64,000 nt of DNA, from positions 341,001-405,000 of the forward strand of contig JAQGDQ010000009.1 of assembly GCA_030141605.1 (NCBI GenBank), written 5' to 3'. The notes under the pieces were generated by a model that saw only the letters and a list, made by a program, of their open reading frames with translations, was not told where the DNA came from and searched no databases. This DNA comes from Tubiluchus corallicola. Lineage: Eukaryota > Priapulida > Priapulimorpha > Priapulimorphida > Tubiluchidae. This document shows positions 43,601-49,181 of this stretch, one piece after another (position 1 is the stretch's first letter; every line of letters starts with the position of its first letter). The position numbers were made by a program, and so were the translations under genes.

Positions 43601-44846
43601 CTACACAGTATCGTAATTGGTTAAACAACATAATAAAACTCTCTAAATCTTATTATTATCAAAACAAACTAGAACAAGTTAAAACTAACTTGAAGAAAAC
43701 GTGGATTATTATGAAAGAAATTTTGCAGGCAAATAGAAAATCTGGTTCATATACTCTTAAAATTAATAACTGACAATAAATCTGTCGCTTGTGCTTTCAA
43801 CGAGCATTTTTCACAGATTGGTCAAAAATTAGCTGCAAAAATCCCAAATACTGGTGTCAACCCTAAAGTTTATCTTAAGGGTGATTATCAGTCTACTCTT
43901 TTCTTCAGTCCTGTCACAATAAATGAATTAAAATCTATATGTAAATCTTTCAACCGTAATACTTTCTCCCCAAAGTCATAATTGATTTAATTGATAACTT
44001 AGCTGCTCCTTAGCTGATAACTAACGCATATAACCAATTGCTCATTAACAGCAGGAAAATTACCTTATCAACTTAAAAAATCAGTAATTATTCCTGTGTT
44101 TAAGGCTAAAGACTCCTTAGATATTAATAACTATAGACCTATATCATTATTACCTTTTTTCTCTAAAATATTAGAAAAAATAGTCCATAAAAGATTATTA
44201 GACTACTTGACTATACATAATGTACGTTATAATCATCAGTACGGCTTTAGAAAGGGTAGTTCTACACGGCTAGCCCTAATAAATATAATAAATAACGTAA
44301 TTAATTCATTAGAACAAAACGCTGGCTGTTGCCATTGGCATTTTCTGCGATCTCTCTAAGGCCTTTCATACAGTTAATCATGCTATTCTGTTAGATAAGT
44401 TATTCCACTATGGCATTAGAGGGGTCGCATACTCATGGTTTGCTAATTACCTCAAGGACCTAACTCAAGCAGTCAAATGTAACAATGTTCTTTCCAACGT
44501 TTTTAATATACATTAATGACTTACAAAACTGTATTACTTACAATGAAAAGGTCTTCCAATTTGCTGATGACACAAGTATTTTTTTCAAGATCAACAGCAA
44601 GTCACTTGACACTAACATTATTAATAGTGAACTGAGTAAAATTACAGCCTAATTTAAAATAAATAAATTAGCATTAAATTCAACTAAAACTAAATACATT
44701 TTATTCAAAGCTCGTAACAAACCTATAAATATGAACAGTATTATAAAAATTGATGGTAATGCTGTAGAACAAGTAAGCGAAATGAAGTTCTTTGGTGTTA
44801 TGTTAAATGAACACCTAGATTGGAAACCACACTTAAATATGATTCA

Positions 44847-46412
44847 TCTATACTCTTATATTAATATTCTTTGTATATATATATATATATATATATATTT
44901 ATTTATATATAAGATTCGAGGCTACAGCCCGGACGAGGGCACCATTTGCGGCGATCTATACATCATACGAAAGGTCTCGATCTAGTGTCGTCTCATTGGG
45001 GGTTTATTTTTCGAATCGGGCCCACCGGGAGTAACGGGGGGCGAAAAACCTCCAAAAATGGCCCTTTTTCAGGCGTTTTTTGCAAAAGTTATACGGCTGA
45101 GATGTAGAGAATGGGAACGGGCCGAGGGTGGTGCTGGGTATGGATAGATAGCCCGTTCAGCGGTGGGTGTCATAGGCCTATTTTGAATTCGCGAGAAGGC
45201 CACGGCGTCCCGCAACGGGCGTTTTCCCGGACCCAACTCGCGATTTTTTCGAAATTTTGACCAAACTGCGGAAAAAACGTTCTAGCGGCGCCTGGTGGGA
45301 CTTTCGGAAGGAGATATACGGCTCTTTAGAAAGAGGAAGGACAGGGCTACACGGTGATGTAGGCTATATGTTAGGGCAGGTCCACCGAGAGAAGTACCGA
45401 CGAGTTAATTAGAGGTTCCATTTTCGGCAATTTTCGCTTAGAAAATTGCTGACGCAAAGGCATTGTTCTGACGTCATCCATTGTACTCTACTCTGCTTAT
45501 AGCTTTAATTCAGTAAAAGCTACAGGCTTTGCGTTAGTTAAACAAACAGTAGGCACGTTGTTAAGGGCTTTGTGTTATAAATGAGGACTAGGTAGGATGT
45601 TCGCGTATTATTGATTACCCGTGGTTTTTTACGCAAAATCTTTTGCGGGGCCTTTGTTATTTATTATATTATAGCACATAGTTTCAACTTTGTGAAAAAT
45701 GTTTGGAATGGTTTTGTTGTAATGCTGTGTTGTTGGTGCTTGTGCTATAGGTGTCATCATCATTGCCACCATCATCATCATGATCACCACGTGAGGTGGT
45801 GGATTTGATGTGGTGTGGTGGTGGTGTGTTTTGTGTGTTGTGCTATGGATGGTGTGGTGGGGTGATAGGGTGTGTGGGGTGTGGTGTGGGTAGTGTGGTA
45901 TGGAGTGGGTGGCGTGGTGTGTGGGTGGGGGTGTTGTGGTGCAGTGTGGTGTTATGGTGTGGTGCAGTGTGGTGTGATGTGGTGGAGTATTATGGTGTGG
46001 GTGGTGTGGTGTGGGTGGTGCGGTGTGGTGGTATGGTGTGGTGCAGTGTGGTGTGATGTGGTGGAGTCGTATGGTGTGGTGTGGTGTGTGGGTGGTGCGG
46101 TGTGCTGCAGTGGTATGGTGTTGTGCGGTGTGGTGTGATGTGGTGGAGTGGTATGGTGTGGGTGGTGTGGTGTGTAGGTGGGTGGGTGGTGTGGTGCAGT
46201 GTGGTGTTATGGTGTGGTGCTGTGCGGTGTGATGTGGTGGAGTATTATGGTGTGTGGGCGGGTGGTGCAGTGGTATGGTGTGGTGCAGTGTGGTGTGGTG
46301 TGATGTGGTGGAGTGGTATGGTGTGGTGCAGTGCAGTGTGATGTGGTGGAGTGGTGTGGTGTGGGTTGTGTGTTGATTTGTGCACAAAATTCTTTTTGTG
46401 GGGTTTGGCTAG
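44847..46412 (+). mobile_element. Helitron-like non-autonomous element, copy 1
   Basis: Starts TCTATACTCTTATATTAATA immediately after host A (44846) and ends GGGTTTGGCTAG. A perfect 7-bp hairpin, CACAAAA-TTCT-TTTTGTG (46383-46400), ends 12 nt before the 3' end. TC start, CTRR end, 3' hairpin and A/T insertion site are the Helitron hallmarks. Internal order: TA-rich 5' end, GC-rich block (about 44,910-45,400), a region with TGACGTCA (about 45,471), then a G/T array to the hairpin. No Rep/helicase frame, so any mobility needed a partner element. Confidence 0.8.
45795..46375. repeat. G/T-rich strand-asymmetric array in Helitron copy 1
   Basis: Imperfect TGTGGTG/GGTATGGTG/GATGTGGTGGAG units with almost no C on the plus strand. 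The long open frames of Gly, Val, Trp, Cys (plus) and His, Thr, Pro (minus) are artefacts. Runs of GG and GGG make it prone to G-quadruplex formation. Confidence 0.9.
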
Positions 46413-48093
46413 TCTCTTATATTAATATTCTTGGTATATATATTTATTTATATATATATAAGATTCGAGGCTACAGCCCGGACGAGGGCACCATTTGCGG
46501 CGATCTATATATCAAACGAAAGGTCTCGATCTAGTGTCTTCTCATTGATGGTTTATTTTTCGAATCGGGCCCACCGGGAGGAACGGGAGGCGAAAAACCC
46601 CCAAAAATGGCCCTTTTTCGGCCGTTTTTTGCAAAAGTTATACGGCTGAGATGTAGAGAACGGGAACGGGCCGAGGGGGGTACTGGGTATGGATAGATAG
46701 CCCGTTCAGCGGTGGGTGTAGTAGGCATATTTAGAATTCCCGAGAGGGCCAGGGCGTCCCGCAACGGGCGTTTTCCCGGACCCAACTCGCGATTTTTTCG
46801 AAATTTTGACCAAACAGCCTGCGGGAAAAACGTTCTAGCGGCGCCCGGTGGGACTCTCGGGAGGAGATTTATAGCTCTTTACAAAGAGGAAGGACAGGGC
46901 TACACGATGATGTAGGCTATATGTTAGGGCAGGTCCACCGAGAGGAGTATCAACGAGTTAGTTAGGAGTTCTATTTTCGGCAATTTTCGCTTAGAAAACT
47001 GCTGACGCAAAGGCATTGTTGTGACGTCATCCATTGTATTCTGTCTATAATCTTATAGCTTTAATTCAGCAAAAAGCTGCTACAGGCAAAGTAAACAAAC
47101 AGTAGACACGATGTTACGGGCTTTGTGTTATAAATGTGGACTAGGTAGGATGTTCGCGTATTATTGATTACACGTGTATTTATACGCAATCTTTTGCGGG
47201 GCCTTTGCTATTTATTATATTATAGCACATAGTTTCAACTTTGTGAAAAATGTTTGGAATGGTTTTGTTGTAATGCTGTGCTGTTGGTGCTTGTGCTATA
47301 GGTGTTGTCATCGTTGCCACCATCATCATCATCATCATCAACATCATGATCACCACGTGAGGTGGTGGATTTGATGTGGTGTGGTGGTGGTGTGCTTTGT
47401 GTGTTGTGCTATGGATGGTGTGGTGGGGTGATAGGGTGTGTGGGGTGTGGTGTGGGTAGTGTGGTATGGAGTGGGTGGCGTGGTGTGTGGGTGTTGTGGT
47501 GCAGTGTGGTGTTATGGTGTGGTGCAGTGCGGTGTGATGTGGTGGAGTATTATGGTGTGGGTGGTGTGGTGTGTGGGTGGTGCGGTGTGGTGTGGTGTGG
47601 TGGAGTCGTATGGTGTGGTTGGTGTGGTGTGGTATGTGGGTCGTGCGGTGTGCTGCAGTGGTATGTTGTGGTGCGGTGTGGTGTGATGTGGTGGAGTGGT
47701 ATGGTGTGGGTGGTGTGGTGTGTAGTGGGTGGGTGGTGTGGTGCAGTGTGGTGTTATGGTGTGGTGCTGTGCGGTGTGATGTGGTGGAGTATTATGGTGT
47801 GGGTGGTGTGGTGTGTGGGTTGTGCAGTGGTATGGTGTGGTGCAGTGTGGTGTGATGTGGTGGAGTGGTATGGTGTGGGTGGTGTGGTGTGTAGGTGGTA
47901 TGGTGTGGTGTGGGTGGTGTGGTGTGTAGGTGGGTGGGCGGTGTGGTGCAGTGTGGTGTTATGGTGTGGTGCTGTGCGGTGTGATGTGGTGGAGTGGTAT
48001 GGTGTGGTGCAGTGTGGTGTGATGAGGTGGAGTGGTGTGGTGTGGGTTTTGTGTTGATTTGTGCACAAAATTCTTTTTGTGGGGTTTGGCTAG
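46413..48093 (+). mobile_element. Helitron-like non-autonomous element, copy 2 (head-to-tail)
   Basis: Begins TCTCTTATATTAATATTCTT directly after the CTAG of copy 1, and ends with the same hairpin (48064-48081) and CTAG at 48090-48093, followed by host T. By eye about 90% identical to copy 1 in the GC-rich block. It is 115 bp longer, mostly from the G/T array. Confidence 0.8.
47359..48055. repeat. G/T-rich strand-asymmetric array in Helitron copy 2
   Basis: Same unit types and order as in copy 1 but expanded to about 700 bp. It is preceded in both copies by a CATCATCATC tract and CACGTGAGGTGGTGG. Confidence 0.9.
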
Positions 48094-49181
48094 TTCTAAA
48101 ATTGCTAAAAACATCGGGTTAATCAGTCGAGTTAAACATTGTTTCACTAAAGAACACCTAATCACACTTTATAATTGTCTGGTACTGCCATACCTGGACC
48201 TACTGTAATATACTTTGGGGGCACACCTACCCTTCAACTCTAATTAAACTAAACTCTCTACAACGTAAATTTATAAGATGGATAGCTAATTTGAACAAGC
48301 GTGAACACGTAGGTCTTAATCTTTTTAAGAATTATTCTGTCCTTAGTGCTAAATGATCTAATAAACCTGAATACCGCTGTTTACATCTACAAAACCAAAC
48401 ATAAACTTCACCCCGCTTTCTTTTTAAACCCATTATCTATTAACGTAAGACATTACTCAACAAGATTTAACGAATTTCGTATTAAGTATTGCAGGACTGA
48501 TGTAGCAAGGCACTTCATCACTAACACTGTCCCTAGACTTTGGAATAACATCAACGAATACATAAAAAATTCTTTATCTATAAATAACTTCAGAAGAAAT
48601 CTTAAAAGTGAAATCTTTTCTAATTATAATGAATAAATCAATTTGATTAATTATGCTGCTGTCTCTGTCGGAATCCATTGCGTTGCTGGCTATGTCAATT
48701 TTTACATTTCTATAGTTTACGTTACTTCATACAGATACCATCACATCTTTCTCCTCTTTCTATTCTCTATTAACCTTTCTTTCTACTGCTTTACTGCTCT
48801 TTTCTATTACACTCAGTCCACATTCAGTTGGGGTGCTCTAAACAAGTAATTGCTTCTTGAGTACCCCACGGGTCTTTTGCGGCTTGGCATCTTGTGTACA
48901 TAATAATAAATATGTTATTAAATACTTTTATGTGCAATACTGTAATGATCGTTGTGGATATATTTAATAAATAAAATAAAATAAATAAACACCAAACAGC
49001 CATGACTAGTGATCCAATTAACAAACAAGAAAGGGTGAGAAATTTAACAATGTACAACATGCTGAGTTTGGTCAGTATTATCCTAGAATTGCTTATTTAA
49101 AATAAATTTAACCATAATACCAAGTGGATTGGGTCATGTACCAAAAGCACTAAGCTTCATTAAAGTTACAGAAGGAAAGAA

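Follow-up and report, generated by a model that had tools for sequence, protein, structure and literature searches.

A head-to-tail Helitron dimer in Tubiluchus corallicola best explained by self-targeted successive insertion

Consecutive insertion was proposed by Du et al. (2008), with the order unsettled, for a pair of neighbouring Helitrons in maize (PMC2267711); the same paper reports the counter-argument of Pritham and Feschotte, that consecutive insertion should leave a host A between the CTAG of one element and the TC of the next. Here, we report a head-to-tail pair of Helitron units inserted in a LINE (non-LTR retrotransposon) of Tubiluchus corallicola (Priapulida), at positions 44847-48093 of a 64,000-nucleotide stretch of contig JAQGDQ010000009.1 (positions 341,001 to 405,000; assembly GCA_030141605.1), hereafter the window. 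Self-targeted successive insertion, not a concatemer, is the best explanation of the dimer (probability roughly 0.85), and the arrays of its family form mainly by successive independent insertions at the A/T on the left edge of a resident copy (a slash marks an insertion point or junction). When an element inserts between a host A and a resident T, no host A remains where the two elements meet, a simple way round the missing-A argument. Consecutive insertion has thus already been proposed for one maize pair; what the Tubiluchus family adds is order, a motif, and a spacing rule.

The comparisons that follow refer to the parts of the cited papers drawn on here. The maize pair is like the Tubiluchus family in its spacer-free CTAG/TC junction between dissimilar Helitrons, with host A/resident T insertion as one of two options, but it is a single pair for which a GT target or excision was invoked, whereas the Tubiluchus family offers about a hundred junctions, nested splits, a motif, and a 5′-end spacing rule (PMC2267711). 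Helraiser and Helibat of bats share the TC...hairpin...CTAG structure, the A/T target without target duplication, and alternative or truncated 3′ ends (PMC4778049, PMC5876387), and the AT preference of Helraiser is strongest on the 3′-flank side, in agreement with the side of the Tubiluchus motif (PMC4778049). Unlike the Tubiluchus family, the bat elements carry no description, in the parts of PMC4778049 and PMC5876387 used, of a phased ATTAWT or of left-end self-targeting, and their retransposition is reported without clustering near donor sites. FoHelis of Fusarium insert into themselves near 5′ ends, have multiple 5′ termini, and include a three-copy tandem for which insertion versus rolling circle was left open; they differ in their Helitron2-like ends, few cases, and TNAT/T target (PMC5148889). 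Helentrons, HINEs, and DINE-1 are likewise non-autonomous and may hold internal repeats, but have a T-rich target and sub-terminal inverted repeats where the Tubiluchus family has A/T and TC/CTAG (PMC4067079). Within the open-licence literature, covered in part, no description was found of a phased motif common to a Helitron target and left end; for TTAAT as a Helitron target, no paper there was, by title, on Helitron targets.

The genome searched was a 343.5-Mb assembly in 2344 contigs (G000, which has gaps), with the window in contig C679; L-numbers denote extracted loci. The left LINE flank (...ATGATTCA) runs up to 44846 and the right flank (TTCTAAAATT) starts at 48094. The joined flanks align with all seven LINE copies compared (L065-L071; 93-96%, gap-free up to 50 bp from the junction); these seven came from 42 stretches matching the left flank, and since L066-L068 look redundant, perhaps five are independent. 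Because the compared copies are uninterrupted (ATGATTCA^TTCTAAAATT), the insert lies precisely at the A/T, without duplication or loss of host bases. Both units are of the long form of the family, which also has a short form. Their 3′ ends are alike, a CACAAAA-TTCT-TTTTGTG hairpin followed by GGGTTTGGCTAG (hairpin of 18 nt, 12 nt from the end; 7-bp stem folding at −5.4 kcal/mol, z −2.7), and the inner junction has no spacer, CTAG at 46409-46412 directly adjoining TC at 46413. Their 5′ ends differ: unit 1 starts with TCTATACTCTT (L type) and unit 2 with TCTCTT (S type). The features, all on the + strand, are as follows.

44300..44846, + strand: LINE, left part, ending with the host A of the A/T target (44500-44846 gives the 42 matching stretches)
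44847..46412, + strand: Helitron unit 1, long form, 1566 bp, TC...hairpin-CTAG, the probable newcomer (nearest sampled relative L011, 2.2%)
44847..44869, + strand: L-type left terminal sequence TCTATACTCTTATATTAATATTC, ATTAAT from position 14 (232 genomic matches at ≤1 mismatch)
45631..45660, + strand: bypassed short-form 3′ end inside unit 1, CGCAAAATCTTTTGCGGGGCCTTTG followed by TTAT instead of CTAG
45809..46372, + strand: GT-rich minisatellite of unit 1
46383..46412, + strand: right terminus of unit 1, 18-nt hairpin, GGGTTTGG, CTAG
46413..48093, + strand: Helitron unit 2, long form, 1681 bp, the probable resident, first in (nearest sampled relative L004_4509, 2.7%)
46413..46430, + strand: S-type left terminal sequence TCTCTTATATTAATATTC, ATTAAT from position 9, within the range of the host target motif
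47184..47211, + strand: bypassed short-form 3′ end inside unit 2, CTAT instead of CTAG
47375..48045, + strand: GT-rich minisatellite of unit 2
48064..48093, + strand: right terminus of unit 2, hairpin, GGGTTTGG, CTAG
48094..48640, + strand: LINE, right part, starting with the host T of the A/T target

The original prediction, made from the window alone, had described a Helitron-like insert between A and T of a LINE with a deducible empty site, TC starts, CTAG ends, a CACAAAA/TTTTGTG hairpin, and a spacer-free CTAG/TC inner junction; its coordinates proved exact, the empty site was borne out by the seven contiguous LINE copies, and the Helitron identity was supported by the ends, hairpin, A/T target, and genomic copies of the ends. 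Both units have the TC...CTAG ends of canonical Helitrons (Helitron1; 5′ TC, 3′ CTRR), the LINE empty site (7/7) agrees with canonical A/T insertion without target duplication, and the hairpin falls within the canonical definition of 16-20 nt at 10-15 nt from the 3′ end (PMC13286980, in the part drawn on). The 20-nt right end of the long form has 436 genomic matches (≤2 mismatches) versus 1 for a reversed control, and is therefore no chance sequence. The element is an ordinary non-autonomous canonical Helitron. Membership among Helentrons or HINEs was ruled out by its A/T target, which is not the T-rich T/T.

What distinguishes the arrays is which left end follows CTAG. Left ends of L type (TCTATACTCTTATATTAATATTC) were counted 232 times (≤1 mismatch) and of S type (TCTCTTATATTAATATTC) 152 times (exact, after A, C, or T); variants beyond these two also occur in the genome. 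Genome-wide, CTAG is directly followed by an S-type end at 118 places (exact) and by an L-type end at none, with ≤1 mismatch allowed (Fisher P ~5e-39 for 118 S versus 0 L at CTAG against 152 S and 232 L other ends; ~1e-33 minus 20 redundant entries). The 118 is inflated, since at least 20 of the 100 among the matches listed look redundant; contigs C1752, C1831, C1974, C2072, and C2074 each show the same five junctions with the same spacings. About 44% of S-type ends are occupied in this way (118 of 118+152). The long-form right end is followed by the TCTTATATTAATATTC block within 20 bases at 56 places, 45 of which read CTAG/TCTCTT; three carry an L-type end, which a spacer with A as its last base keeps apart from CTAG (counted by eye). 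The base before L-type ends is A at all 20 loci not selected for that base; before S ends it is A in 88, T in 11, and C in 1 (100 among the matches listed, under a search pattern that excluded G). These preceding bases (A in 20/20 for L ends and in 88/100 listed for non-G S ends) rule out the alternative that unit 2 entered a G/T site behind unit 1.

Near-identical coordinates or spacing also mark C457 with C628, and C1787 with C2264, as likely redundant contigs that inflate raw counts. Arrays L002, L003, L004, L007, L008, L016, and L017 reach contig ends, so that array lengths and numbers are underestimated.

The preference for S-type ends has a counterpart in host DNA. Right flanks were taken from 100 of 219 long ends and 100 of 659 short ends, among the matches listed, a scope that holds for the counts from these flanks. 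Removal of 65 own-family left ends, 7 related-family flanks, and 21 microsatellites from these 200 left 107 (103 distinct); three of the 103 proved to be own-family (two of them the family's own left end in opposite orientation) and were dropped, giving 100 host flanks. The motif A/T-N3-8-ATTAWT (ATTAWT starting at +5 to +10) is present in 54 of the 100 (55/103 before the remnants were dropped), versus 1.35% of 5029 A/T sites elsewhere in the window, and ATTAAT is phased, starting at 6, 7, or 8 in 29 of 31 occurrences. In a second locus set, the motif occurs in 16/32 flanks (14/27 host-only; five are not host, L002, L030, and L053 being internal to long units and L003 and L026 own-family units) versus 6.1% of 378 A/T sites 25-150 bp away, and ATTAAT lies near the site in 7/32 flanks (6/27 host-only) versus 0.5% of local A/T sites. 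A stands at −1 in 49/50 loci of the local-flank set, but the S loci there (20 S loci) were chosen from matches with A before the end. T follows CTAG in 95/100 long ends and 97/100 short ends among the matches listed.

Left ends of the family can be read against the same motif. S-type ends (A/TCTCTTATATTAAT) and those of the L072 subfamily (A/TCTATATATTAAT) fit it, because ATTAAT starts at 9 and 8, respectively, whereas the L-type end, with ATTAAT at 14, misses it by 5 nt. By matching the host motif, the S-type left edge, where the host A meets the first T of the element, offers a good target in its own right. Motif sites are estimated to be of the order of 10^6 in the genome (extrapolated from window density), yet about 44% of S ends are occupied, so left ends draw insertions far beyond what the motif draws.

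The L072 subfamily is a related one, 80% identical, whose left end TCTATATATTAATTC is also a landing site directly after CTAG. Two right ends face an own-family left end in opposite orientation (G000 C559:13756-13790 and C1056:299084-299118, by eye); in both cases, the insertion went into the left end of a resident from the opposite strand.

Nested splits give the order of events. The L012 locus has a left end cut into TCCCTTA and TATTAATATTC with a unit between the halves, and the intact form of that end, TCCCTTATATTAATATTC, is found in L047; at L020, the pieces TCTATTCTCTTA and TATTAATATTC flank two units; and L018 is a similar split and a good case. Since the 5′ tip of the downstream unit lies to the left of the inserted DNA, the upstream unit is the newcomer at these three loci. 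A left edge reused, or a resident interrupted at A/T, is thus seen in L012, L020, and L018 and at the 118 edge junctions, some of them redundant. By the same logic, unit 2 of the window would have come first and unit 1 second.

Relatedness was compared over the alignable 5′ part (about 800 bp, gaps excluded) of 79 units, including 31 adjacent pairs; this is not a random sample, because array loci were chosen as arrays, and the genome holds many further copies. Units 1 and 2 are 0.084 apart and rank 41 and 66 among each other's 78 neighbours; closer relatives lie elsewhere, L011 for unit 1 (0.022) and L004_4509 for unit 2 (0.027). The by-eye figure of about 10% between the copies compares with 8.4% measured, or 89% BLAST identity, and of the two histories offered with it, aging together in place or coming from different donors, the latter is better supported. 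Adjacent pairs differ on average by 0.0687 versus 0.0716 for re-paired units (31 pairs, P=0.056), so that adjacency brings at most a slight gain in relatedness. The same S junction is preceded by different upstream 5′ types (L, TCTACTATTA, S, and others).

Taken together, the fit of S but not L left ends to the host motif, the same division at CTAG junctions, and the splits indicate that arrays grow by successive insertion at the resident's left edge. In the window, unit 2, with its S-type 5′ end, would have entered the LINE between A and T, forming at its left edge a new A/T (the LINE's A plus unit 2's first T, ATTAAT at position 9). Unit 1, with its L-type 5′ end and different descent, would then have inserted at exactly that A/T, so that its own TC follows the LINE's A and its CTAG abuts the TCTC of unit 2. 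Judging by sequence patterns, a RepHel transposase would mobilise copies in trans, target joining may require A/T plus ATTAWT at a short distance, and the start at the donor left end may tolerate the longer L spacing; we lean towards a single RepHel transposase reading one motif both at Helitron left ends and in host target sites. If so, each S-type copy would offer its successor a high-affinity landing pad, with arrays seeding themselves leftwards; start nicking would accept ATTAAT at 14 (L) where target joining would not, making the two nicks mechanistically separate; and head-to-tail Helitron arrays alone would be no evidence for rolling-circle concatemers. The natural S/L variation serves as a built-in control: concatemers should arise with either type of end, self-targeting just with the one matching the motif. 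The extended motif amounts to a rule, in sequence terms, for how Helitrons choose targets, one that is directly testable with an active element.

The original prediction read the dimer as a rolling-circle concatemer, one transposition passing CTAG, re-entering at the TC start, and delivering a tandem dimer in a single event. The spacer-free CTAG/TC junction suits such an event, and head-to-tail junctions have been cited as support for rolling circles (PMC5876387, in the part drawn on), but a single recent donor must repeat the same 5′ end, and here an L end is followed by an S end, in units that are not closest relatives (0.084 versus 0.022 and 0.027). The L-type junction that it predicts, CTAG/TCTATAC, occurs 0 times against 232 L ends, CTAG being followed instead by S ends (118), and truncated junctions and nested splits at other loci tell against it as well; this part of the prediction did not hold, and we regard a concatemer as highly improbable. 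A dimer formed once elsewhere and moved as a composite by reading through its inner CTAG, or arrays made by unequal crossing-over, would agree with a few close neighbours (e.g., L007, 1.5%) and with the correlation among 16 S-junction pairs (Mantel r=0.33, P=0.08). Read-through seems to occur in the family, since the long form has an inner terminator that was bypassed. At least three upstream 5′ types nonetheless precede the same S junction, and the nearest relatives of units 1 and 2 lie in different loci, which makes this route improbable too. Successive insertion could also be steered without motif recognition, by nothing more than DNA near the left end that is AT-rich or melts easily, a variant compatible with the favoured reading. 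Helraiser favours AT-rich DNA, most of all on the flank at the transposon 3′ end (PMC4778049, in the part drawn on), and 21/200 flanks among the matches listed are TTA/ATT-type microsatellites. Against this stand the phasing of ATTAAT (29/31), the L ends, which carry the same AT-rich block and of which none was found hit at the edge, and the presence of ATTAAT near 7/32 sites (6/27 host-only) against 0.5% of local A/T sites; we think this variant unlikely, though the least so of the three.

Several observations weigh against self-targeted successive insertion. Three of the 31 adjacent pairs are mutual or near-mutual nearest neighbours (L007, 0.015; L036, 0.037; L003, 0.042), and these, with the borderline adjacency value (P=0.056), mean that local amplification could account for some arrays. 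Movement of dimers as whole units was put to a Mantel test, which was weakly positive and non-significant (r=0.17, P=0.13; r=0.33, P=0.08 for S junctions alone). The truncated junction of L005 lacks its expected left piece, L002 is ambiguous because its left end also occurs, without a partner, in L016, and the L012 and L020 splits have ATTAAT at 2, which falls short of the main motif range. The age test, which expects the downstream unit to be farther from its nearest relative, tended in that direction but was non-significant (18/31, with 11 opposite and 2 ties; P=0.13). The LINE site itself (A/TTCTAAAATTGC) has no ATTAWT, 11 of the 100 listed S ends follow T and one follows C, and the motif alone does not account for the occupancy of S ends.

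Within the family, the intact short-form end GCGGGGCCTTTGCTAG has 659 genomic matches of the flank pattern and a 6-bp stem (−5.9 kcal/mol on folding). The long form consists of a mutated short-form terminator (window 45631-45660 and 47184-47211), then the GT minisatellite, then a new hairpin and CTAG. It looks like a short Helitron that read through its end and gained a new terminus, because the short-form end persists inside long units with TTAT or CTAT.

The Helitron_like_N profile had one genome match, on C2069 (two candidates scored; E 1.1e-49; locus L022-L023, G000 C2069:1-18000). Positions 14915-15140 of C2069 resemble unit positions 541-675 (67%, E 0.003) and 728-798 (78%, E 3e-10), and the 3′ end of this Rep locus reads GCCTTTGCTAG/T, also given as GGCGGGGGCCTTTGCTAG/T, and is related to the short form. 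Folding gave no clear hairpin there (−2.5 kcal/mol, z −0.5), and no 5′ end matching the family's left ends was found; the C2069 locus is therefore, as far as its sequence goes, a relative and not a proven partner of the family. No helicase frame was recognised (frames inspected by eye; of three unspliced L022 open reading frames given to Pfam, just the Rep one matched), and the next 8 kb hold no frame of ≥120 amino acids.

Among 40 fetched left-end copies (L024-L063, by eye), 15 keep an intact 5′ end but stop early at the 3′ side, L024, L045, L055, L056, and L060 among them. Five early-stopping copies end at the same point, GGTGGGTGTAGTA, followed by T and ATTAAT or ATTATT; these five are cases of premature 3′ termination with normal target choice.

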